Source: Parafilimonas terrae
Lineage (GTDB): Bacteria; Bacteroidota; Bacteroidia; Chitinophagales; Chitinophagaceae
Length of the DNA stretch: 64,000 bases
Direction: 5' to 3'
NCBI RefSeq assembly: GCF_900115755.1
Contig: NZ_FOXQ01000004.1
Coordinates: forward strand, 248,001 to 312,000
Below, piece after piece: positions 33,484 through 45,200 of the stretch. Each line of letters starts with the position of its first letter. Position 1 is the stretch's first letter. Position numbers and translations under genes: made by a program. The notes beneath the pieces were generated by a model. That model had not been told where the DNA came from. It was given only the letters and a program-made list of their open reading frames with translations, and made no database searches.

Positions 33484-34284
33484 TTAATTGGAAGATTGCT
33501 TTTCCTTCGCTGCCATTTTTTGTTTAAACTGTTCAATGGCAATTTTACTAAAGTCACTTAAAATAAGCCTGCCGCTGATGGCAGCGCGTTCATGCAAGAA
33601 TTCGTCCCAATGTTCTGTGCCTTTCCAGAAACCTTTTTTCAGCACCGCCACAGCCTGGGGATTGGCATGTGTGAGAAAGGTAGATAGCTTTAATACCGCT
33701 TCATCCAAACTTGCTATATCAGGATGCAGCTCTGCATATAAATTTCTTCGCTTTGCCCAGTCGCAACTGCGCCATGATATGGCATCAATTGCTAACTGGC
33801 TAAAAGCCGACATATTTATTTTCCGTTCAATAATGGGTCCCACCACAAATGGCCCAATACCGATGGCAAGCTCACTCAACTTTACGTCGGCGCCCGAAAC
33901 CGCAATAGCATAATCGCAGGCCGCAACCAAACCAACGCCTCCGCCAATGCATTTGCCATGAACCCTTGCAATAACTATTTTAGGGCACTTGCGCATGGCA
34001 TTAATGATATTTGCAAAGCCACTGAAAAAATGAGTGCCCTCGGCTTCTGTTTTAATGGCAGCAAGCTCATTAAAAGAAGCGCCTGAACAAAATATATTGC
34101 TGCCGGCACTGCGTATCACAATCACTTTACAGTCATCATCATGGCCGGCAATATGAATGGATTTGGCAAGTTCATCTAAAATTTTATATGGAAGGGAATT
34201 GCCTTGCGGATGAAAAAACTCTATAGTTGTAATGCCCCGGTGCGTTTCGGTTTTTACATAACCTTCCTGTATTTCGTGTATCAT
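33484..34284 (-). CDS. Enoyl-CoA hydratase/isomerase family protein
   Basis: Crotonase-fold enzyme of 266 residues acting on CoA thioesters. Characteristic segments are IEFFHPQGNSLP, IRSAGSNIFCSGASFNEL (oxyanion hole), VIARVHGKCIGGGVGLVAACDYAIA and KLSELAIGIGPFVVGP. The second acidic catalytic residue usual in true hydratases is not obvious (ELAIGIGPF in place of E-x3-G), so the reaction is uncertain; branched-chain degradation (methylglutaconyl-CoA type) is one possibility. It is separated from tldE by a terminator and probably has its own promoter. Confidence 0.85.
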   Translation of the reverse strand: MIHEIQEGYVKTETHRGITTIEFFHPQGNSLPYKILDELAKSIHIAGHDDDCKVIVIRSAGSNIFCSGASFNELAAIKTEAEGTHFFSGFANIINAMRKCPKIVIARVHGKCIGGGVGLVAACDYAIAVSGADVKLSELAIGIGPFVVGPIIERKINMSAFSQLAIDAISWRSCDWAKRRNLYAELHPDIASLDEAVLKLSTFLTHANPQAVAVLKKGFWKGTEHWDEFLHERAAISGRLILSDFSKIAIEQFKQKMAAKEKQSSN

Positions 34285-34381
34285 AATGGCAATAATTTAA
34301 AGTAGTAAAGTAAGAAAAAATACTATACGCAAGTGTTATTAATTAAAGATGAAACGTAAAACTTCATGCTTTGCCGCCAAC

Positions 34382-34411
34382 AAAAAAGCCGCAAAAATTT
34401 TGCAGCTTTTT
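34382..34411 (-). terminator. Terminator after the tldE-like gene
   Basis: AAAAAAGC-C-GCAAAA and TTTTGC-A-GCTTTTT form a long stem with one C-A mismatch, with T-runs on both strands. It lies 21 bases past the tldE stop on the minus strand and can serve that transcript. Confidence 0.75.
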
Positions 34412-34432
34412 ATGTTGAAAAATGAATTGAAA

Positions 34433-35770
34433 TTATACCGCATCAGATAAAGAGCTGAACGTAAAGTCTCTTATTTTCATTGGCGGTATCAGGGCATGAA
34501 TGCCAGATTCACCGCTCACCGTTCTTTCAGGCACACCCAGCGCTTCAATATTATTAAGCATTATGATGGGGCTTTCGTTAAACCTGAAATTTTTTACAGG
34601 ATATTTTACCTGCCCGTTTTCAATATAAAAAGTACCATCTCTTGTAAGCCCGGTTTGCAATACGGTTTGCGGATCCACTTCGCGTATATACCAAAGCCGT
34701 GTAACGAGTATGCCCTTTTCTGTGCCTTTAATTAATTCTTCCAGCGATTGGGTGCCGCCTTCCATTATAACCGCATCAGGCTGCGGCACTGCTTTCACCC
34801 CTTGTTTCTGCGCCCAGTAACGCGAATAAAATAAGTTCTTCATTACACCTTTATCCACCCAGGTTATTTTTTCCTGGGGCCTGCCATCTCCGGCCCATGT
34901 GCTTGTGGGAAGATCGGGATTCCACGGGTCTGAATAAATGGTTACACGTTCATCCACCAGTTTTTCCCCAAGCCTCGTACCGCCGCCTGCTTTGCTCATA
35001 AAACTCCTGCCTTCATCGGCGCTTCTTCCATCCATATTAAAAAACATGGTTTCGAGCAAAACAATAGCCGCTGTTGGTTCAAGTATCACGGTATATTTTC
35101 CGGGCTCCAGCGCTTTGGCATCAACTGAACCTGCCGCTTTCTTTGCCGCCACTGTGGTAAGGCTTTTTACATCCAGCTTTGAAACATCATTATACCCCTT
35201 TGAAGCATAGCCGGAGCCTTTGCCATCCTGCGTGCGTAATGTGAGATTAAAATTTATATTGGTGGCAGTGTTATAAGCAAACAAACCTTTTGAGTTCATC
35301 ATGGCAGAATAACCTGCGCTGTTTTCCAAAAAACCTGCGGCAATTAAATTATTGTCTTTTGAAATTTGCAGGCTGTCTCCAACCGCATCAGTCCTGAATT
35401 TGGGATCGATGGCGGCTGTTGTTTCTACATAAGTTTTTGAGGGCGCAGTATATTGCTGAGGCCCGAGAATTGAAACATATTCAGGGTTTTCCGGTGCAAG
35501 CTGTGCCAGCTCTTCAGAACGCCTTACCACTTTTTCCAGCGAAGCATCATCAAACTCATTAATAGTTGCCACACCAAGTTTTTTTCCGTAAGCAGAACTT
35601 ACAACAAGCGTACTTTGCGTAATGCCGCCGCTTGTTGATACGGCGTTGCGTGCATAACGGATATTACCCCCATCGCTGCTGCCGATATTTACCTCACACT
35701 CATCTGCTTTTGAATAGCTTAATACTTTTTGTAAAAGTGTTTTTGCTTCCTGTTCTGTAAGTATTGCCAT
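34433..35770 (-). CDS. tldE: TldE/PmbA family protein
   Basis: Subunit of the TldD/TldE protease, which processes small peptides such as modified microcins and toxins. The 445 residues start MAILTEQEAKTLLQKVLSYSKADE and show the family's NSAGYSAMMNSKGLFAYNT and GGTRLGEKLVDERVTIYSDP segments and the C-terminal GIHALIPPMKIRDF. It lacks the HExxH metal site, as expected of TldE/PmbA, which belongs to the partner TldD. It lies 129 bases downstream of the tldD-like gene on the same strand, in the usual order. Confidence 0.92.
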   Translation of the reverse strand: MAILTEQEAKTLLQKVLSYSKADECEVNIGSSDGGNIRYARNAVSTSGGITQSTLVVSSAYGKKLGVATINEFDDASLEKVVRRSEELAQLAPENPEYVSILGPQQYTAPSKTYVETTAAIDPKFRTDAVGDSLQISKDNNLIAAGFLENSAGYSAMMNSKGLFAYNTATNINFNLTLRTQDGKGSGYASKGYNDVSKLDVKSLTTVAAKKAAGSVDAKALEPGKYTVILEPTAAIVLLETMFFNMDGRSADEGRSFMSKAGGGTRLGEKLVDERVTIYSDPWNPDLPTSTWAGDGRPQEKITWVDKGVMKNLFYSRYWAQKQGVKAVPQPDAVIMEGGTQSLEELIKGTEKGILVTRLWYIREVDPQTVLQTGLTRDGTFYIENGQVKYPVKNFRFNESPIIMLNNIEALGVPERTVSGESGIHALIPPMKIRDFTFSSLSDAV

Positions 35771-35899
35771 ATTAAAATGTTTTGTCCCCGTAAAAATTTA
35801 TCTCGTACAGGGATATACATAAATTTTGTTTGTTGAATTTCTAATTCCATTCTTTACATTTCAACTTATCAACCTGTCAACTAATCAACTTCATCCCTG

Positions 35900-37534
35900 C
35901 TATATCTTCCTCGCCGTATTAATTACGTTCACGCCGTTAAACCTTGCAGTGGATGCGCCATGCGATACGGCGCTTGATTGCGGTGGCTGGCCTTTACCAT
36001 CAAAGAAAGACCCGCCAAGGCGATAATCCTTTTCATCGGCAACAGCTACGCATGAATTCCAGAATTCCTGCGTGTTGCTTTGATAAGCTACATCTTTCAG
36101 CATGCCCGCAATTTTTCCATCTTTTATTTCATAAAACAACTGGCCGCCAAACTGGAAATTGTAGCGCTGCTGATCAATAGAAAAAGAGCCATCGCCAATT
36201 ATATAAATGCCTTTCTCTACATTTTTTATCATATCGGCAACAGCCAGCGGCGATTTGCCGGGAGCAAGTGATACATTGGGCATACGCTGAAACTGAACAG
36301 AACTCCAGTTGTCTGCATAACAACAACCCTGTGATGCATTCAGGCCAAGTATATGCGCCTGGTCGCGTATGGTTTGATAATTTACAAGAACACCTTCTTT
36401 TATCAAATCCCATTCCTGGGTGGCTACACCTTCATCATCATAACCAACAGCGCCAAGGGAGCCGGGTTGTTTTTTATCTGCAAAAATATTTACGTTATTA
36501 CTGCCGAATTTAAAGTTCTTCGATTGCCATTTATCCAATGTAAGAAAGCTTGTTCCTGCAAAGTTGGCTTCATAACCCAGCACACGGTCAAGCTCTGTGG
36601 GATGGCCAACAGATTCATGAATGGTTAGCCATAAGTGTGAAGGATCGAGAATAAGGTCATATTTGCCGGCTTCAACAGATTTTGCTTTTATTTTTTCGCC
36701 AGCCTGCTGACCGCCAAGCTTTGCATCTTCAATCATATCATACCTGTTACGGTATAAAGTGGTTTGGCTGCTGATCTTTTCTGCCGCTGACGGCATCACG
36801 TATTCATAGCCCATGCCCCGCGGCGCACTTAATGCATTGCGGGTTTCAAACTTACCGGTTGTTGCATCAATCTTTGTGATAAAAAATGTTGGCCATATAC
36901 GGTGAATATCCTGGTCTATATAACTGCCATCTGTTGATGCAAAATATTTCTGTTCGTTTACCAAAAACAAAATAGAGTTGATGTAGTTAGCTCCTGCCTG
37001 CATTGCTGCCGAATTCACGCCCATTAGCAAATCAACTTTTTCTTTAACCGGCACTTCAAATGCATTTTTTTCAATCGGCGTTTTCCAGCTTACTTCACCA
37101 AAACCTTTTTGCGGTGCAAGCTGCACAGGTTCGGTAAGCAACCTTGCATTTTCTTTTGCGATGGACACTGCAAGCTCTGCTGCTTTGGCAATGCTGTCTT
37201 TATCCATATTATCCGTAGCGGCAAAGCCCCAGCTCCCGTTAGCAATAACACGAACGCCAATGCCATACGACTCAGTGTTTACAATGTTCTGCACCTTGTC
37301 TTCGCGGGTTACCACAAACTGGTTAAGATAACGGCCAATGCGCACATCTGTATAGGTGGCGCCTTTGCTGCGGGCTGCATTTAATGCAACGTCGGCCAGT
37401 TGTTTTTTGAGCGCCACATCGCCCGGGTCCCATGGCCTGTCGAGTGGTACCGCATTACCGACTATAGGTATGTTGGCAAGCATAGAAGCTCCAACACCCA
37501 TGCCGGCAATCTGTAAAAAATTTCTGCGTTTCAA
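35900..37534 (-). CDS. tldD: TldD family metalloprotease with a Tat-type signal
   Basis: Catalytic subunit of TldD/TldE, 544 residues. The zinc motif HESVGHPTE is at 306-314, with family segments VRVIANGSWGFAATDNM and YEANFAGTSFLTL. Unlike the cytoplasmic enzyme of E. coli, this one begins KRRNFLQIAGMGVGASML, a twin-arginine export signal, which points to a periplasmic place; such exported TldD versions are known in Bacteroidota as far as I recall. The TldE partner downstream shows no signal, which leaves open how the pair would meet. A short gap with AACTAATCAAC-type repeats lies between the two genes. Confidence 0.92.
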   Translation of the reverse strand: MKRRNFLQIAGMGVGASMLANIPIVGNAVPLDRPWDPGDVALKKQLADVALNAARSKGATYTDVRIGRYLNQFVVTREDKVQNIVNTESYGIGVRVIANGSWGFAATDNMDKDSIAKAAELAVSIAKENARLLTEPVQLAPQKGFGEVSWKTPIEKNAFEVPVKEKVDLLMGVNSAAMQAGANYINSILFLVNEQKYFASTDGSYIDQDIHRIWPTFFITKIDATTGKFETRNALSAPRGMGYEYVMPSAAEKISSQTTLYRNRYDMIEDAKLGGQQAGEKIKAKSVEAGKYDLILDPSHLWLTIHESVGHPTELDRVLGYEANFAGTSFLTLDKWQSKNFKFGSNNVNIFADKKQPGSLGAVGYDDEGVATQEWDLIKEGVLVNYQTIRDQAHILGLNASQGCCYADNWSSVQFQRMPNVSLAPGKSPLAVADMIKNVEKGIYIIGDGSFSIDQQRYNFQFGGQLFYEIKDGKIAGMLKDVAYQSNTQEFWNSCVAVADEKDYRLGGSFFDGKGQPPQSSAVSHGASTARFNGVNVINTARKI

Positions 37535-37727
37535 GTGGAATTATTTTGAGGTGAAAAATAGTTATGTCTCTTTAGCTGTAAGTTTTAATGATAGCAATTT
37601 AAGCAGGGATTAATATTATCACTAAAATTTTTGATGAAAGGTTGCTGACTTATTTTTTGGGGCGAGGAACCAGCTGCTGTAATAAAAGTTGTCATTTTCT
37701 TACAGATCCAAACTTAAAATAATTAAA

Positions 37728-37753
37728 AAAGAAGCCCATATAAAGGCTTCTTT
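37728..37753 (-). terminator. Terminator after the acetate transporter gene
   Basis: AAAGAAGCC and GGCTTCTTT form a 9-bp stem around an 8-base loop; on the minus strand the stem is followed by six T. It lies 20 bases past the stop of the transporter gene. Confidence 0.8.
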
Positions 37754-37773
37754 ATAGCAAAAGAAATTTTGTA

Positions 37774-38370
37774 TTACAGCGGAAAAACCTTCCTGCCATG
37801 CACTTCGTTTATAACCTGCGCAACGCAACCATAGAATGCAGCGCCACCGCATACAATACCTTCGTAACCAGCAATTGTGTGCAAAGATTTATTGCCGGTA
37901 AAATCGCCCAAAGCCAGCAGGAAAAACAATATGGTAAGTGTAAAGAAAACCACCTGCAATAAACGGTTAAGTTTTAATGTGCCGATAAACATAAAAAGCG
38001 TGAAGATGCCCCATAATAATAAATACCATGCAACTGCCGTTTCGCTGGATTTGTATTCCGCACCAAAAGATGTTTTAGGTATAAGCCATAAAGCAACCAG
38101 CGATAACCAGAAAGCGCCATAAGCTGTAAATGCCGTTGCGCCAAATGTGTTGTTCTTTTTCCATTCCTGCAGGCCTGCGAATATTTGTGCAATGCCACCC
38201 ATAAAAATGCCCATACCCATTATCATGCTGTCAAGCTCGTAAATGCCCGCATTATGAATGTTGAGTAAAATAGTAGTCATGCCAAAGCCAAGAAGGCCAA
38301 GCGGCGCAGGATTGCCTGTTGTGTCTTTAATGATAATTGTTTTTGGAGAAACATCGTTAGTTGAATTCAT
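37774..38370 (-). CDS. Acetate/succinate uptake transporter, SatP (GPR1/FUN34/YaaH) family
   Basis: Inner-membrane protein of 198 residues with six predicted transmembrane helices. The hallmark [14 protein letters not shown] lies at the N-terminus near residues 20-33, followed by helix 2 with [16 protein letters not shown], then [12 protein letters not shown] and three further hydrophobic segments. Members move acetate or succinate across the membrane by proton coupling or as channels. The next gene upstream is the Crp/Fnr regulator, divergent, 362 bases away, but no operator is visible in the gap. Confidence 0.92.
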
Positions 38371-38732
38371 GCAGCAAGTTTAAAAGATTAAAAATAAAGG
38401 TTTAAAAATAACGAGGAAGTTTAAAATTGAGCATCATCAGCCAAACAACTTAAAAAATATTTGTGGAATGTGGTATGCATTTATTTTAAACTGAAGTAAT
38501 GAACGTTTAAAAACGCGGCAATTTAAGCCTTGTGGCATGTTTGGCATTTCTCACCTGCTATTCATCAAAATAATTCGGAATAAACTTTGGTAATAAGAAA
38601 TAGAAACTACTTTGAATAACTGAGGCTTAGCAGTGCTGAGATTAAAGCTGGGTAAGGGTTTAGGCAAACCATTTAATTGCTTATAAAGCTTGCACTACTG
38701 TTTAAGCAACTAACTAAACTGTAAAGATTGAC
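38371..38732. other. Gene-free gap between satP-like and crp/fnr-like genes
   Basis: AT-rich DNA with no reading frame worth reporting and no palindrome of the CTTAAC type found downstream. It must hold the divergent promoters of both genes; I cannot place them. Confidence 0.4.
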
Positions 38733-39308
38733 ATGTTTGAAAATTTAATTAAAAACCTTAACAGCTATCTGAATTTTACTGATGAAGAATTAACCTTTTT
38801 CCTTTCACTTTTCGTATACAAAAAGGTGAAAAAGTATGATTATATTATAAAAGCCGGAGAAATTTGCCACTATGTTGCTTATGTGAATAAAGGATTGTTC
38901 CGTTATTATTTTACAGCGGGCAATAAAGAGCATACCACACGCATATTTTTAGAGGATTCATGGACGGGCGATTATGTTTCATTCTTATGCCGCAGGGAAT
39001 CTGTGGTTAACATTGAAGCGCTTGAAGATTCCGAACTATTCATGCTGAATTATGAATCCATCCAAAGGGCCTATGATAAGGCTAAAACCTTTGAACGCTT
39101 TGGCAGGCTGATAGCCGAATCACTGTTTATTGATATCGTTAGCAGGAATACGAACTTCCTGAGGAAAACACCAGAAGAACGATACCTTGATATGCTGGAA
39201 CAAACGCCACAAATATTCAACAGGGTTTCTCTTAAATACATAGCGTCTATCATTGGTATTGAACCTGAAAGCCTCAGCCGCATAAGAAAAAGAACAGCCG
39301 GCAGATAA
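38733..39308 (+). CDS. Crp/Fnr family transcriptional regulator
   Basis: A 191-residue regulator with an N-terminal cupin/cNMP-binding-type barrel (YIIKAGEICHYVAYVNKGLFRYYF near 37-60; EDSELFMLNYESIQRA near 100) and a C-terminal helix-turn-helix (SLKYIASIIGIEPESLSRIRKR near 164-186). The phosphate-binding cassette of true CRP is not evident, and no Cys cluster of FNR is present, so the effector is unknown. Four symmetrical CTTAAC-type sites lie directly downstream, and the first overlaps the region of its stop codon by two bases, so it may bind there itself. Confidence 0.9.
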   Translation: MFENLIKNLNSYLNFTDEELTFFLSLFVYKKVKKYDYIIKAGEICHYVAYVNKGLFRYYFTAGNKEHTTRIFLEDSWTGDYVSFLCRRESVVNIEALEDSELFMLNYESIQRAYDKAKTFERFGRLIAESLFIDIVSRNTNFLRKTPEERYLDMLEQTPQIFNRVSLKYIASIIGIEPESLSRIRKRTAGR

Positions 39309-39309
39309 T

Positions 39310-39356
39310 CTTAACCAACATCAATATTTCCGGTTTATTTCTTAACCAACGTTAAG
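39310..39356. promoter_or_regulatory. Operator pair A: CTTAAC-N4-GTTAAG-type palindromes
   Basis: An imperfect copy (CTTAACCAACATCAAT, 39310-39325) and a perfect one (CTTAACCAACGTTAAG, 39341-39356) are 31 bases apart. A -7-like box TACATTTG follows at 39380, which would place the sites near -42 and -73, the geometry of an activator of the Crp/Fnr class. Confidence 0.6.
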
Positions 39357-39379
39357 TGCAAAACAACGCTTTGCATTTT

Positions 39380-39387
39380 ACATTTGT
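39380..39387 (+). promoter_or_regulatory. Bacteroidota-type -7 promoter box
   Basis: TACATTTG fits TAnnTTTG exactly. The -33 element is poor, as expected for an activator-dependent promoter. A transcript from here would run into the 560-base gap before the YkuK-like gene at 39953. Confidence 0.4.
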
Positions 39388-39562
39388 GTTACCTATTTAT
39401 ACGGCCAGGACATTAAGTAATAATATAAGGTTTATTATTACTCCCGTTTTTAAATCCGTTCCCCTGCTGGTCATACTGCCTTGTTGCAAGCAATTAATAA
39501 ACTCTAACTAAAAGTTATGTGGAATCAATTACACGGAATCTAACAGCAGCAAGGTTTTCAGG

Positions 39563-39609
39563 CTTAACACAGGTTAAGTTTTGAAATTTATTTCTTAACA
39601 AACATCAAG
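39563..39609. promoter_or_regulatory. Operator pair B: CTTAAC-N4-GTTAAG-type palindromes
   Basis: A perfect copy (CTTAACACAGGTTAAG, 39563-39578) and an imperfect one (CTTAACAAACATCAAG, 39594-39609) have the same 31-base spacing as pair A, in mirrored order. The gap 39309-39952 is otherwise without a recognisable gene, and I see no clear -7 box for this pair. Confidence 0.55.
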
Positions 39610-39952
39610 AAACATTCAATTACGTTAATGAATTTATCAAATTAAAAACAGCCATCCTTATCAACAATATTCTATCAGAAAAAAAATCTTTAAAGGCCGT
39701 TGCAACATTATAGTCCCCGAAATCACCTGCCATTTTCTTACTGTTTATGCATGCTGCATATACATTAACAGCATTCAAAACTGTCCATTATAATTGGTAC
39801 TTATAATGCTTCAATGCCTAAACCCTTTTTATATATCACAGGCGCAAAAATTAAATCATCTACGCCGCGTTCCAGCCTTTTTCCACCTGTGTTCATAATC
39901 TTATAATAGTACATATAATTTTCTGTTTGTAAATTGGGACAAACATATTTAT

Positions 39953-40426
39953 ATGCGATGGAGAAGATTTAACGGCGAAACCATTCACATGCCTATTAAA
40001 TCGGCTGTGGAAGATGCCATCAAGCGCGAGCACGACAAAGGCGTGCATTTAAAAGTTTGCATTGGCACCGACAGCCAGGTAAAAGGCAGTGAAACGGAGT
40101 TTGCAACCGTAATTGTTTTTCTACGGGAACACAGCGGTGGCTTTATGTTTATTCATAATGAAAAAACAAAGCAACGCTATAATATTAAAGAGCGCATGCT
40201 GGTTGAAGTGGCCAAAAGCATTGAAGTGGCTTATGAGCTTTGCAATCTTTTTATTCAGTATGATGTTGACATGGAAGTGCATGCTGACATTAATACCAAT
40301 CCTCATTTTAAAAGCAATGATGCATTGCGTGAAGCTATGGGTTATATTATGGGGATGGGCTTCGCTTTTAAAGCAAAGCCTGAAGCATTTGCCAGTAGCT
40401 GCTGCGCAGATAAAGCCTGCAACTGA
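39953..40426 (+). CDS. YkuK-family (DUF458) RNase H-like protein
   Basis: A 157-residue protein with a ribonuclease-H-like fold, function not established. The start MRWRRFNGETIHMPIK is the family's usual N-terminus. LKVCIGTDSQVKGSETEFATVIVF holds the first acidic residue (Asp near 45) of the fold, and VDMEVHADINTNPHFKSN a further acidic pair; GYIMGMGFAFKAKPEAFAS and a Cys-rich end (CCADKAC) close the protein. It stands alone between the operator-rich gap and a convergent lipoprotein gene. Confidence 0.85.
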   Translation: MRWRRFNGETIHMPIKSAVEDAIKREHDKGVHLKVCIGTDSQVKGSETEFATVIVFLREHSGGFMFIHNEKTKQRYNIKERMLVEVAKSIEVAYELCNLFIQYDVDMEVHADINTNPHFKSNDALREAMGYIMGMGFAFKAKPEAFASSCCADKACN

Positions 40427-40629
40427 TCATCTTTTCGTGCAATAAAGCACTGCAATAAATTACTTCACGTCTCCGGATGTTTTCCGGGGCTAATAATTCC
40501 TACGCCGCCAATTTCCTAAATCTATACAGCCTTATCCGCTTTCTTTATCAAATAATCACTGAATATTAAGCATTGATTATTGCTTGTTTAAAACAATTAT
40601 ACTTCGCCTGAAAAATACCGGATGTAACG

Positions 40630-42057
40630 CTATAAATTTATCTCACCTTCATTATCCCAGTTCTTCTTCACCGTTAATTTGCGCGGGAGGCGTATTACTA
40701 TTTCAGGCTGGCGTTTAAGTTCAAAGCTGCCGGGCGTCCATGTAAGGTTTTTATCCTCATCATATAAAATGCGCAGTTCATAATCGCCGGGCTTGTATAG
40801 CTTGCGGTAAAACTCGGTGCTGGTTAATGCAGCCGAATCAACTACTTTATCATTTTGTGTAAACTGCAATACAGGGTTAAGGCTCAAATCAATTGTAGGG
40901 AAACGCAAACGCACACTTCCATATTCACTTTCTGCTGCAGTTTGAAATTTAATGGTATCTGTTTTGGCCAGCATTTTACCGCTGCTGTCAACAAAAGCAT
41001 CCGGCTGAATTACCAGCCTGAAATACTCCCCTTCTTTCCACGGATATTCTACCGTGAATTTTTTAAATGAAGTATCTGCAACAATCCTGTAATTACTAAG
41101 CGGTTTAAAATTACTATCGGCCAAAATAATTTTAGACGAATCAAATGTAGCCAGCTTCTCCTGGAAATTTATATCAAGGTTGCTTAACAAATCCTGTCGC
41201 CCGTTTTCCATTGCCACAGCATATTTTAGGGTTGTATCATTTCCTTTTTTTCTTGGTGGCTGGTTAGTTGATTGCTGTTGCCCAAAACCTTCGTTTTCTT
41301 TACCGGGCCTGTATTCATTATAGGCATATAACATAACAGGCTCCGCTGAAGTAACGCTATCGATTGTAACCGGTTCATCCAAAAAAGCAAACAGTTTCGT
41401 GCTGTCATCGTAACGCTTGGTATAATCGTTGGGCAAAACATATACGGCATATTTGCCATAAGCCACATATTTAAAATTAAAACGGCCTGCACTATCGAGC
41501 GTGGTATAGTAATCAGGCCTGAGTTTTTTAACAGCAGAATCATTGAGGTTGCTATGCAGCACAACAATAAGCGTGGAATCAGATTTCCCTGTTTCAGCAA
41601 GCTGTACTTTGCCGCTTAACCGCCCATCTATAATATGATCACCGGTGGAAAAAACGTAAGTGAAATTTTTAGCAATATTGCCTTCGTTATTATCTTTTAA
41701 AGCCTTGCCAAAATTGATGGAATAAGTGGTGTTTGGCTTAAGCGAATCTTTCAGCCGTATATTAATATCCTTTAAATGCGCCATTATAATCGGCGCTATT
41801 TCTGGATTTGGCGATACTACCAGGCTCGTTTGCACCGCCTGGTTATCTAACTGAATATATTCATTAAACGTAAGCGTTATCCTGTTGTTTTTAAAATTAA
41901 GCGCTGAATCTTTAGGCGTTGCAGCAACCAATACCGGCGGCAATGAATCCCTTGGTCCGCCCGTTGGCGGAATAATGTTGGCACAGGATGTTAATGTCTG
42001 AACCTGGATTTGTAGGATGGATAAGATTATAAGGAAACTTAAAAAATTTCTTTTCAT
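40630..42057 (-). CDS. Lipoprotein with Ig-like (SbsA-type) domain, Bacteroidota-conserved
   Basis: A 475-residue surface or periplasmic lipoprotein. The N-terminus has a hydrophobic segment and lipobox TLTSC (Cys near 25), followed by the family phrase IPPTGGPRDSLPPVLVAATPKDSALNF and LTFNEYIQLD, which begin a bacterial Ig-like domain. A second beta-rich region (GRLSGKVQLAETGKSD, about 160-260) resembles a carboxypeptidase-regulatory-like fold, and a third domain closes near 460 (ELKRQPEIVIRLPRKL). The role is unknown; it is common in the phylum. It is divergent to the addA-like gene. Confidence 0.85.
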   Translation of the reverse strand: MKRNFLSFLIILSILQIQVQTLTSCANIIPPTGGPRDSLPPVLVAATPKDSALNFKNNRITLTFNEYIQLDNQAVQTSLVVSPNPEIAPIIMAHLKDINIRLKDSLKPNTTYSINFGKALKDNNEGNIAKNFTYVFSTGDHIIDGRLSGKVQLAETGKSDSTLIVVLHSNLNDSAVKKLRPDYYTTLDSAGRFNFKYVAYGKYAVYVLPNDYTKRYDDSTKLFAFLDEPVTIDSVTSAEPVMLYAYNEYRPGKENEGFGQQQSTNQPPRKKGNDTTLKYAVAMENGRQDLLSNLDINFQEKLATFDSSKIILADSNFKPLSNYRIVADTSFKKFTVEYPWKEGEYFRLVIQPDAFVDSSGKMLAKTDTIKFQTAAESEYGSVRLRFPTIDLSLNPVLQFTQNDKVVDSAALTSTEFYRKLYKPGDYELRILYDEDKNLTWTPGSFELKRQPEIVIRLPRKLTVKKNWDNEGEINL

Positions 42058-42238
42058 GTGATTGCTGAAAATACAAACATAGGATGTTTAAAATTGCAAG
42101 CTTCCTAATAATCCGATAAATTGTCTGAACCGGGATTAATGGGATTTAGGGATTAACCGGATTATAACGATGCTTTCATTGTAATCCTGCAAATCTTATA
42201 ATTTATAAAAATCCCGGTTCAGACTATTTTTACACTTC

Positions 42239-45200
42239 ATGCAAAAGCCACTTAAAATATTACAGGCGTCTGCAGGTTCCGGAAAAACCTTCAGCCTTGC
42301 CGCCCATTATCTTACCTTATTATTCAGCGGTGAAAATAAATACCGCGAACTGCTGGCGGTAACTTTTACAAACAAAGCCACCGGGGAAATGAAGACCCGC
42401 ATACTGGAAGTGCTGGAAGGCCTCGCCAAAGGCGATGAAAGCGTGAACAGTTATCGCAGCATTATTTTAAAAACACATCCGCACCTGGCAGGCGAAACAT
42501 TGAAAGAAAAAGCGGATAAAATATACAGGAAGATATTGCATGACTACAGCCGGTTTGCCGTAAGCACGATTGATGGTTTTGTGCAGAAAGTGATACGAGG
42601 TTTTGCATTTGAGCTTGGCTTGAGTTCTGATTATGCGCTGGAGATGAATTATGATAAAGTGAAAGATGAACTGGTGCAAAAAATGGATGCTTCGCTTGAC
42701 AATAATAAGCAGTTGCTCGAATGGATAATTACGCTTGCGCTGGAACGCATCAGCGATAATAAAAACTGGGATTATAAATTTGAATTAGGCAGCCTTATTA
42801 ACGAAATATTCAAAGAAAGCTTTGAAGTATTTGAGCAGGCCCTTGCCACTATCGGCACAGAAAATATTGATGCGCTTTTTAAACGTTATAATCAAATAAC
42901 AAAACAGGAAATTGATGCGTATGAAAAACAACTTTCCGAATATGGAAAGCAGGCGGTGACTGTGTTTGAGCGGTATAATTTAGATAAAGCGCATTTTGTG
43001 CAAGGCAGCAGAAACTGGTTATTCAAGCTACAAGCATTCATCAATAACGACCAGGATAAATTTGCTAAAATATTTGCATTGATTGATAACCCGGATGCAT
43101 GGTTTAAACCAGACAAGGGCGACGGCAGCATGTACCAGCAGCTAAATGCATTACTAAAAACCATACAATCATTTTACGAAGAAAAAGTTGGCTCGTATGA
43201 ACTGGCCATAGCTTTTAAAAAGAATTTATATTATTTAAGGTTGATGCAGGAAGTGGTAACACTGTTATCAGCTTATCGCAATGAACACGACAACCTGCTG
43301 ATAAGCGATGCGCAAAAACTCATTACCGGCATTACCGGCGATGCAGGCGGCAACCCTTCTTTTATATGGGAAAAAGTGGGCGCCCGCTACCGAAATTTTT
43401 TGTTTGATGAATTCCAGGATACTTCCGTTAATCAATGGAAAAGTTTCAGGATGTTACTCGCCAATGCATTGGCGTCAGCCGAAGGAAAATATATAGACAA
43501 TTTAATTGTGGGCGATACCAAGCAAAGCATTTACCGCTGGCGTAATGGCGACTGGAATATATTGCACCAGCAGGCAAAAAAAGATATAGGTGAATTATAT
43601 ATTTTAGAAGAAAGCCTATCAGAAAATTACCGCAGCACTGCCAACATCATCGATTTTAATAACCATCTGTACCAACTGTTACCGGCATTATTGCAATCAT
43701 ATTTAAACAATACCGTGCAGGAACAACCGGCGGCTATTAATGAATGGTGGAACAGCAATGGTTTTAATGAAGTAATTACATCAGTATATGCAGGCGCAGC
43801 GCAATCCAAAGCGCTATCTACAAAACCCGGCGGTGCTATAAAAGTTAAACGCTTCAGCAAAGCTGAAGATGAAACAGCGCGTTATACCGAAACAGTTTTC
43901 CGGGAGCAGGCATTGAATGATGTGCTTGAAGAAATCAAGGTACTGATACACGAAAAAAATTATGCACGTAAAGACATAGCCATTTTAGTGCGTTCTAATT
44001 TTGAAGCAACAGCCTGTGTTGAAAAGCTTATGGAACATAACATCCCTGTTATAAGCGGCGATGCATTGCTCATTAGTAATAACCTTGCAGTTGATCTTAT
44101 TATCAATACACTAAAAGTTATAACCGGCATTGATGAACAAACAGCTTTGTATAAAGCTAACTGCATTGCTTTATATCATGCGGTGCATCAAAACCAGGCA
44201 GGGCCCCACCTCTATTGCGACTTGAATGAAAAATCTTTATCACAATTAGATAATGTATTGCCCGCTTCCTTATGCAACAACTGGCAGCAATGGCTGCAAT
44301 TGCCGCTGGCTGAATTAGCAGAGAATTTAATTACAAGTTACCAGCTTAATCATCTTCAGCAACACATTCCTTATTTGCTGGCCTTTCGCGATTTAATTGG
44401 CAACGCCACAAAGCCGGGCGAGAAAGGCATTGGCGCTTTTTTAGAATGGTGGGAAGAAGAGGGTTGCAAAAAATCATTGCCTTCTCCTGATGGTGCAGAT
44501 GCAGTGCAGGTAATTACCATCCATAAATCAAAAGGGCTTGCATTCAGGGCGGTGTTTGTGCCATTTTGTATATGGGACAATGAAACAAAAGCCAACTCCG
44601 TATTCTGGGTTCCGGCACAGGATACCATGTATCATGAATTAGGTAATATGCCTTTGCGCTTCAGCAAAGCGCTTGCACGCACTTCGGTTGCCAAAGCCTA
44701 TTTCAAAGAAGTGTTGTACAGCAATATGGACAGCCTGAATATGCTGTATGTAGCCACTACCCGTGCTAAAGATTTTTTATACCTCGCCACCATGTTTAAA
44801 AAAGAAGCGGATAAATTATCTAACATTGGCGATGCAATTAATACGGCAATGCAGCAGTTTAACCCGGAGTTTGCAAAAGATAATTTGTATGAAAAAGCAG
44901 AAGACATATTAACCGCGGCCGCACCACAGCAACGTTCATGTATTACATTGGAAGATTATCCCACTTCGCAAAGGCTTTCAGAACTGTATGTGGAAATAGA
45001 AGATAAACATATTGTTCATTTGCTGAACAGGGAAAAATCGGGTCGCAGAGGTTCACTCGCACATGATGTTTTAGCCAATGCGTCTAACGAAGATGAAACC
45101 AATGCTTATTTAGAAAAACTATTATCGGAAGGCGTGATTCAGGAAGAAGAATTGCAACCTTTAAAACAGGCTGTAATGGATGTGTTGCAGCATCCTGAAC

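Follow-up and report, generated by a model that had tools for sequence, protein, structure and literature searches.

The gene of a Crp/Fnr-family regulator in the genome of Parafilimonas terrae (Bacteroidota, Chitinophagaceae) is followed by four 16-base sites, each made of two half-sites separated by four bases. The locus raises the questions of which protein reads these sites and what is transcribed from them. We analysed a stretch of 64,000 nucleotides (NZ_FOXQ01000004.1, positions 248,001 to 312,000 of the forward strand), further referred to as the window; all coordinates are positions in it. The preliminary description of this DNA reported two perfect and two imperfect palindromes next to the Crp/Fnr gene, and their positions and sequences proved to be as claimed:

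39310–39325, + strand: box A1, CTTAACCAACATCAAT, predicted upstream activator site, centre at about −73.5
39341–39356, + strand: box A2, perfect palindrome CTTAACCAACGTTAAG, predicted promoter-proximal (class II) site, centre at about −42.5
39563–39578, + strand: box B1, perfect palindrome CTTAACACAGGTTAAG
39594–39609, + strand: box B2, CTTAACAAACATCAAG

The spacing of 31 bp originally given for both pairs holds as the distance from start to start; the gap between the 16-mers, for which the same figure had been stated, is 15 bases. Likewise, the pairs are mirrored in the order of their sites (imperfect–perfect and perfect–imperfect) and not in sequence. Pairs A and B are 47-bp direct repeats, identical in 33 of 47 positions when aligned directly versus 25 of 47 when mirrored. 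An arrangement of pairs facing one another is therefore not supported; moreover, the −7 promoter box described below lies at the right distance from pair A only.

The perfect palindrome CTTAAC-N4-GTTAAG occurs in two places of the whole genome (4,985,410 bases), 222 bp apart and both at this locus, whereas its reversed control has no genome matches. The genome scan for the motif that had been suggested earlier thus confines the exact palindrome to this locus. When the region 39309–39952 was dinucleotide-shuffled 20,000 times, two of the shuffles contained one perfect palindrome and none contained two. The box consensus CTTAACNNNNRTYAA, which covers all four sites, appeared once in 82 of the 20,000 shuffles of this region and twice or more in none, versus four observed boxes; this test is partly circular, as the consensus was written from the same sites, and the test with the perfect palindrome is less so. 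The four sites are beyond chance. At three mismatches the number of sites in the window is ordinary (34 versus 31.4 expected).

In its own genome the CTTAACNNNNRTYAA box shows no genome-wide excess (16 exact rows versus 14 in the control), and the four sites described here account for six of the 16 rows. An own-genome regulon was rejected on these counts. All ten other exact matches were inspected in context. Open frames of more than 200 codons enclose seven of them, the L181 box is situated where a 129-codon frame ends, and those of L179 and L182 are outside frames of 100 codons. The L179 box precedes a 205-codon frame resembling a secreted protein, with no exact −7 box at 21–23 nt.

The candidate promoter next to pair A, referred to as promoter A, consists of the following elements:

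39379–39386, + strand: −7 box TACATTTG, matching the Bacteroidota sigma-A element TAnnTTTG, 22 nt past A2
about 39391, + strand: predicted transcription start, from the −12 to −5 placement of the −7 box
39357–39375, + strand: inverted repeat TGCAAA-N7-TTTGCA, taking up the greater part of the spacer that separates A2 from the −7 box

Within 38371–39952, TAnnTTTG is found once per strand, at 39379 on the + strand and at 39947 on the − strand. PMC9723704 locates this element at −12 to −5 in Flavobacterium psychrophilum; with this placement a gap of 21 nt gives a box centre of −41.5, and a gap of 22 nt gives −42.5. If +1 is set at 39391, A2 is centred at −42.5, that is, near the −41.5 position of a class II operator beside a core promoter, and A1 is centred at −73.5 with the same assumed start.

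We searched 296 Bacteroidota genomes for CTTAACNNNNRTYAA followed by TAnnTTTG, leaving the gap free between 8 and 38 nt. The search yielded 66 places, 47 of them with gaps of 21–23 nt (24 at 21 nt, 18 at 22 nt and 5 at 23 nt) and the remaining 19 spread over 28 other gaps. Summed over the 31 gaps, matches of the reversed control outnumbered those of the real pattern (approximately 94 by hand tally versus 66), and therefore only the peak at 21–23 nt counts as evidence. When the gap was fixed at 21–23 nt, 58 matches were found in 45 of 394 Bacteroidota genomes, versus 13 matches of the reversed control, as tallied by hand. The sole match in the genome studied here is A2 with TACATTTG. These scans indicate that the CTTAACNNNNRTYAA box is part of a promoter design also present in other Bacteroidota. 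They also lend comparative support to the earlier remark that the −7 box stands at an activator-like distance from pair A, the gap being 22 nt.

Frames behind the box promoters were surveyed in the fetched loci, with a −7 box [TC]AnnTTTG accepted at 19–25 nt (38 rows, two sites being present twice). In 36 of the 38 rows an ATG-opened frame of at least 50 codons opens 5–122 nt past the −7 box, given that not every such frame need be a true start. The two rows without an ATG-opened 50-codon frame within 250 nt are the window locus and L163. Box and TAnnTTTG promoters were observed 18–51 nt before pirin-like genes (L143, L149–L152, L154, L157, L164), YceI-like genes (L165–L167) and phosphoglycerate-mutase-like genes (L138, L139) of several Bacteroidota, these names being read from protein starts by eye.

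Upstream of the boxes there are two genes:

38733–39308, + strand: Crp/Fnr-family regulator P0001, 191 aa, with a cyclic-nucleotide-binding-like domain and a C-terminal helix-turn-helix
37774–38370, − strand: GPR1/FUN34/YaaH (acetate-transporter-like) gene, divergent from the regulator gene

The intergenic region between these two genes contains no exact box. The N-terminal domain of the Crp/Fnr family is represented in P0001 by PF00027 (E 1.6e-9, above the cut-off). The Pfam domain HTH_Crp_2 was not detected in P0001 and was seen, below the cut-off, in the relatives L097 and L101 only. The P0001 profile was aligned with solved structures: 3dn7 over profile positions 1–188, DNR (3dkw) to 190 and E. 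coli CRP to 191, and these alignments include the C-terminal Crp-type helix-turn-helix. The AlphaFold model of P0001 is weak, with a mean pLDDT of 47.6; its blocks in 141–190 score 63–78, with two closing helices. The best relatives of P0001 in other genomes are 34–40% identical (59 genomes, the own one included).

The recognition helix of P0001 is GIEPESLSRIRKR, of the EPESLSR type. Crp-like matches in the same genome number 13, P0001 included, and up to 26 were counted in one relative. The helices of seven further own paralogues were read as TPEHLSR, KPQSLSR, SQETLSR, TPESLSR, TPETLSR, TPEYLSE and SRETLSR; among the eight of 13 own Crp genes with the helix read, the [KQER]PES[LF]SR type is found in P0001 only.

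The link between boxes and regulators was assessed in 58 Crp-centred loci (two sets of 29, with the duplicates L021 = L133 and L013 = L114). Eleven exact boxes were found around the 58 Crp genes, in ten loci, versus none in the control, and in 8 of the 58 loci a box lies within 300 bp of the Crp gene. The [KQER]PES[LF]SR helix is carried by 7 of these 8 loci versus 1 of the 50 loci without such a box (Fisher 2e-7), and by 7 of 8 versus 1 of 48 when duplicates are removed (Fisher 3e-7); the helix class was fixed after the rows had been inspected, and the Fisher values ignore phylogeny. Conversely, when loci were selected by the box, a P0001 homologue was present within 300 bp in 11 of 30, a count that includes the window locus, the near-identical L160 and L161, and the weak L159 (26%). 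The box-first loci carry mixed helices, TPES, TPQA and TPEG also being present, which suggests that other Crp/Fnr paralogues may bind such boxes as well. The L119 regulator, 42.5% identical to P0001 and with the helix ERESLSR, has no adjacent exact box, and the same holds for L109 and L110 (helix TPEALSR), which match the profile best; these loci speak against a simple rule. Adjacency of boxes and regulators in other genomes supports the view, already put forward, that the sites are Crp/Fnr-type operators, and the neighbouring gene, proposed at the same time, is the best candidate for the predicted binding.

A collection-wide scan of species genomes for two boxes 30–32 bp apart found 13 stretches. 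Five of them, from Cytophagales-type records (L097, L099, L100, L101 and L107), precede protein starts that look secreted or outer-membrane-like by eye; Pfam detected a CarboxypepD_reg-like domain in L101 and nothing in L097. In L097, L100 and L101 a Crp gene 42–44% identical to P0001 is present in the same stretch (at most 8 kb), and the tandem boxes are 31 or 32 bp apart. The boxes of L097 are found 90 bp past the regulator gene and are followed, after 22 nt, by CACCTTTG; those of the window start 1 bp past the regulator gene. In L100 and L101 the regulator is encoded approximately 2.5 kb downstream, beyond the target gene. An exact [TC]AnnTTTG follows the second box in two of the five stretches, L097 and L101, both at 22 nt. 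L100 has GAATTTTG at 22 nt past the second box, and after the second box of L099 and L107 no exact −7 box was seen by eye. The other eight stretches comprise L104 and L105, upstream of proS-like genes, L106 from Prevotellaceae, and L096, L098, L102, L103 and L108, which are repeats or likely chance matches. In L104 (6502–6547) and L105 (1402–1448), both Bacteroidota MAGs, the paired CTTAAC-N4-GTTAA motifs stand at a distance of 31 or 32 bp from each other ahead of a gene resembling prolyl-tRNA synthetase by eye, and they possibly belong to another regulator with a similar site. A PmbA/TldD-like gene (by eye) is located near the Crp gene both in L097 (223–1584) and in the window (34433–37534); this proximity may be chance or old linkage.

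The tandem arrangement was rejected as a rule of wider validity: 3 of 29 box-first loci had a further box 31–32 bp upstream (score at least 8 of 11), with no clear peak. Among 291 genomes of another order the tandem pattern occurs in one (control 1), where sequence and position are the same as in L097. In 147 genomes of the family, with at most two mismatches allowed, the pair is found in four, including the own one, and exactly in the own one only; the reversed control gave 6. The pair pattern has no matches in viral contigs.

The region into which promoter A would direct transcription contains the following features:

39392–39562, + strand: predicted first part of the promoter-A transcript, with no frame of at least 60 aa and with ordinary folding energy
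39877–39952, + strand: conserved block upstream of ykuK, the last 76 bases before it, with a DNA match in four of seven other same-genus genomes
39953–40426, + strand: ykuK-like RNase H-like gene (PF04308), the next gene downstream, 566 nt past the −7 box

The box promoters of relatives usually open a frame 5–122 nt further on, whereas no 60-codon frame starts within 560 nt downstream of promoter A. The folding of the predicted transcript is ordinary (z −0.36), and the terminator scan predicted no terminator downstream of promoter A. Rfam gave three matches, all below the gathering scores; Pfam found nothing in the five small frames downstream, and a tblastn comparison of the stretch with genes found behind such promoters yielded no good match (best E 0.06). 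An A+T-rich hairpin followed by CCCGTTTTT is located at 39416–39451, 25–60 nt past the predicted start; unflagged by the terminator scan, it is a possible weak terminator.

The regulator gene and the ykuK-like gene are separated by 644 bases. The conserved block 39877–39952, which contains TTTTCCACCTGTGTT and TATAATC-like parts, is likely the promoter region of ykuK itself. The preceding part, 39309–39876, has no DNA match in the seven other genomes of the genus. Six of these seven genomes contain ykuK; in none of the six was a match to P0001 found within 1.5 kb of it, and the sites are absent beside it, hence there is no close conservation. The hidden transcript between the pairs, considered possible in the preliminary description, may exist, with a predicted start near 39391 and a course of 560 nt in which no gene begins; against it speak the ordinary folding, the absence of a predicted terminator and the absence of a match in the genus. 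The explanation may be an orphan transcript, a lost gene or a long ykuK leader.

For pair B, no TAnnTTTG was found at the matching distance on either strand. Lacking its own promoter, this pair would offer a second binding platform like pair A, either as its duplicate or as an auxiliary operator downstream of it. Its offset from pair A is 253 bp, or approximately 24 turns of 10.5 bp, which on this arithmetic would allow looping.

From the boxes, the spacing rule, the regulator family and the link between boxes and regulators, all of them obtained by computation, we infer that pair A and TACATTTG probably form a tandem-site promoter of class II type activated by a Crp/Fnr protein, most likely the product of 38733–39308. 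A regulator dimer on A2 (about −42.5) would contact the sigma-A RNA polymerase, and a second dimer on A1 (−73.5, about three turns upstream) would contribute either cooperativity or a further contact. Transcription to the right would begin near 39391. Since no gene begins within 560 nt, the transcript may be non-coding, may be what is left of a gene since lost, or may serve as a long leader of ykuK. Against this reading stand the missing downstream gene, present in nearly all relatives, the ordinary number of boxes in the own genome, and the absence of regulator and sites beside ykuK in the six same-genus genomes. A more elaborate version seems distinctly unlikely. In it the regulator switches a non-coding RNA encoded in the 3’ flank of its own gene: the tandem class II sites of pair A start this RNA near 39391, pair B lets the same regulator loop the DNA or block the transcript, and the resulting self-contained switch takes the place of the usual protein target.

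Compatible with this reading of the sites is a relic, in which a former Crp-regulated gene was lost by deletion and its duplicated promoter persists as A and B, regulatory DNA without present function. We regard this as a tentative possibility. In its favour, promoters of this design are normally followed by a frame within about 120 nt but this one is not, no counterpart of the stretch was found in the genus, and the two pairs are direct repeats with 70% identity. On the other hand, A2 is a perfect palindrome whose gap and −7 box conform to the rule derived from other genomes, which points to selection or to a recent loss; moreover, the stretch lacks good similarity to genes behind such promoters, as the tblastn comparison showed. 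That the boxes are operators of another own Crp/Fnr paralogue, with the neighbouring gene being there by coincidence, is unlikely. Against it speak the adjacency, also observed in L097 and in the eight Crp-centred loci (of 58) whose box is no more than 300 bp away, and the helix class, matched by P0001 only among the eight of 13 own genes whose helix was read. In favour of another paralogue are the 13 Crp-like matches in the genome, one own paralogue with TPESLSR, and the loci L160, L161, L147 and L115, where boxes adjoin regulators with other helices.

It is very improbable that the palindromes serve an unrelated regulator, e.g. of the TetR or LytTR type, or are the ends of a small mobile element. 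Palindromes of 16 bp are generic and the 300-bp segment does have repeated ends, but the box and the spacing rule are tied to Crp/Fnr genes, and no LytTR or TetR gene was noticed by eye among the ORFs of 34000–45000. The mobile element was rejected, the segment having no second copy in the genome.

The preferred reading, a Crp/Fnr-activated promoter at pair A, has a wider meaning, as Crp/Fnr paralogues are numerous in Bacteroidota genomes (13 matches here and up to 26 in a relative). The rule CTTAACNNNNRTYAA, 21–22 nt, TAnnTTTG, often beside regulators with the PESLSR helix, may serve as a testable recognition code. It predicts pirin-like, YceI-like and outer-membrane-type genes as targets, and the window locus would be a case of the same promoter standing without a protein gene. 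Our literature searches brought up no description of this rule or of sites for this Crp/Fnr subgroup, which may still be published.

In class II Crp-dependent promoters of E. coli the site is located at −41.5, and class III arrangements include a tandem upstream site. The spacing of 21–22 nt sets the Bacteroidota box at −41.5 or −42.5, as in E. coli class II, and the tandem site A1 is class III-like; unlike E. coli class II, the core promoter has the sigma-A box TAnnTTTG and, in the window, no gene directly downstream. The PrfA box TTAACANNTGTTAA, bound by an activator of the Crp/Fnr family, has the core TTAAC-N4-GTTAA. The window boxes share this core and differ in the outer C/G and in the Bacteroidota −7 element; no relation is claimed. 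The E..SR pattern of the P0001 helix resembles that of FNR.

PMC1274295 gives the sites of HcpR2, also of the Crp/Fnr family, as GTAACnnnnGTTAC in Bacteroides and others. Compared with this description, the window boxes have the same two halves with a 4-base gap and TAAC-N4-GTTA in common, but the flanking bases differ, and HcpR2 controls hcp while the next gene in the window is ykuK. With sites CTTAAC-N4-GTTAAG or -RTYAA followed by ykuK and not hcp, the locus does not match the HcpR2 regulon as described there. The same source gives the DNR and FNR boxes as CTTGATnnnnATCAAG. These have the same length and N4 layout, and the ATCAA half also occurs in A1 and B2; unlike them, all four window sites have the left half CTTAAC. 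Judging by the HcpR2 and DNR sites in PMC1274295, the layout of the window boxes belongs to the Crp/Fnr family.
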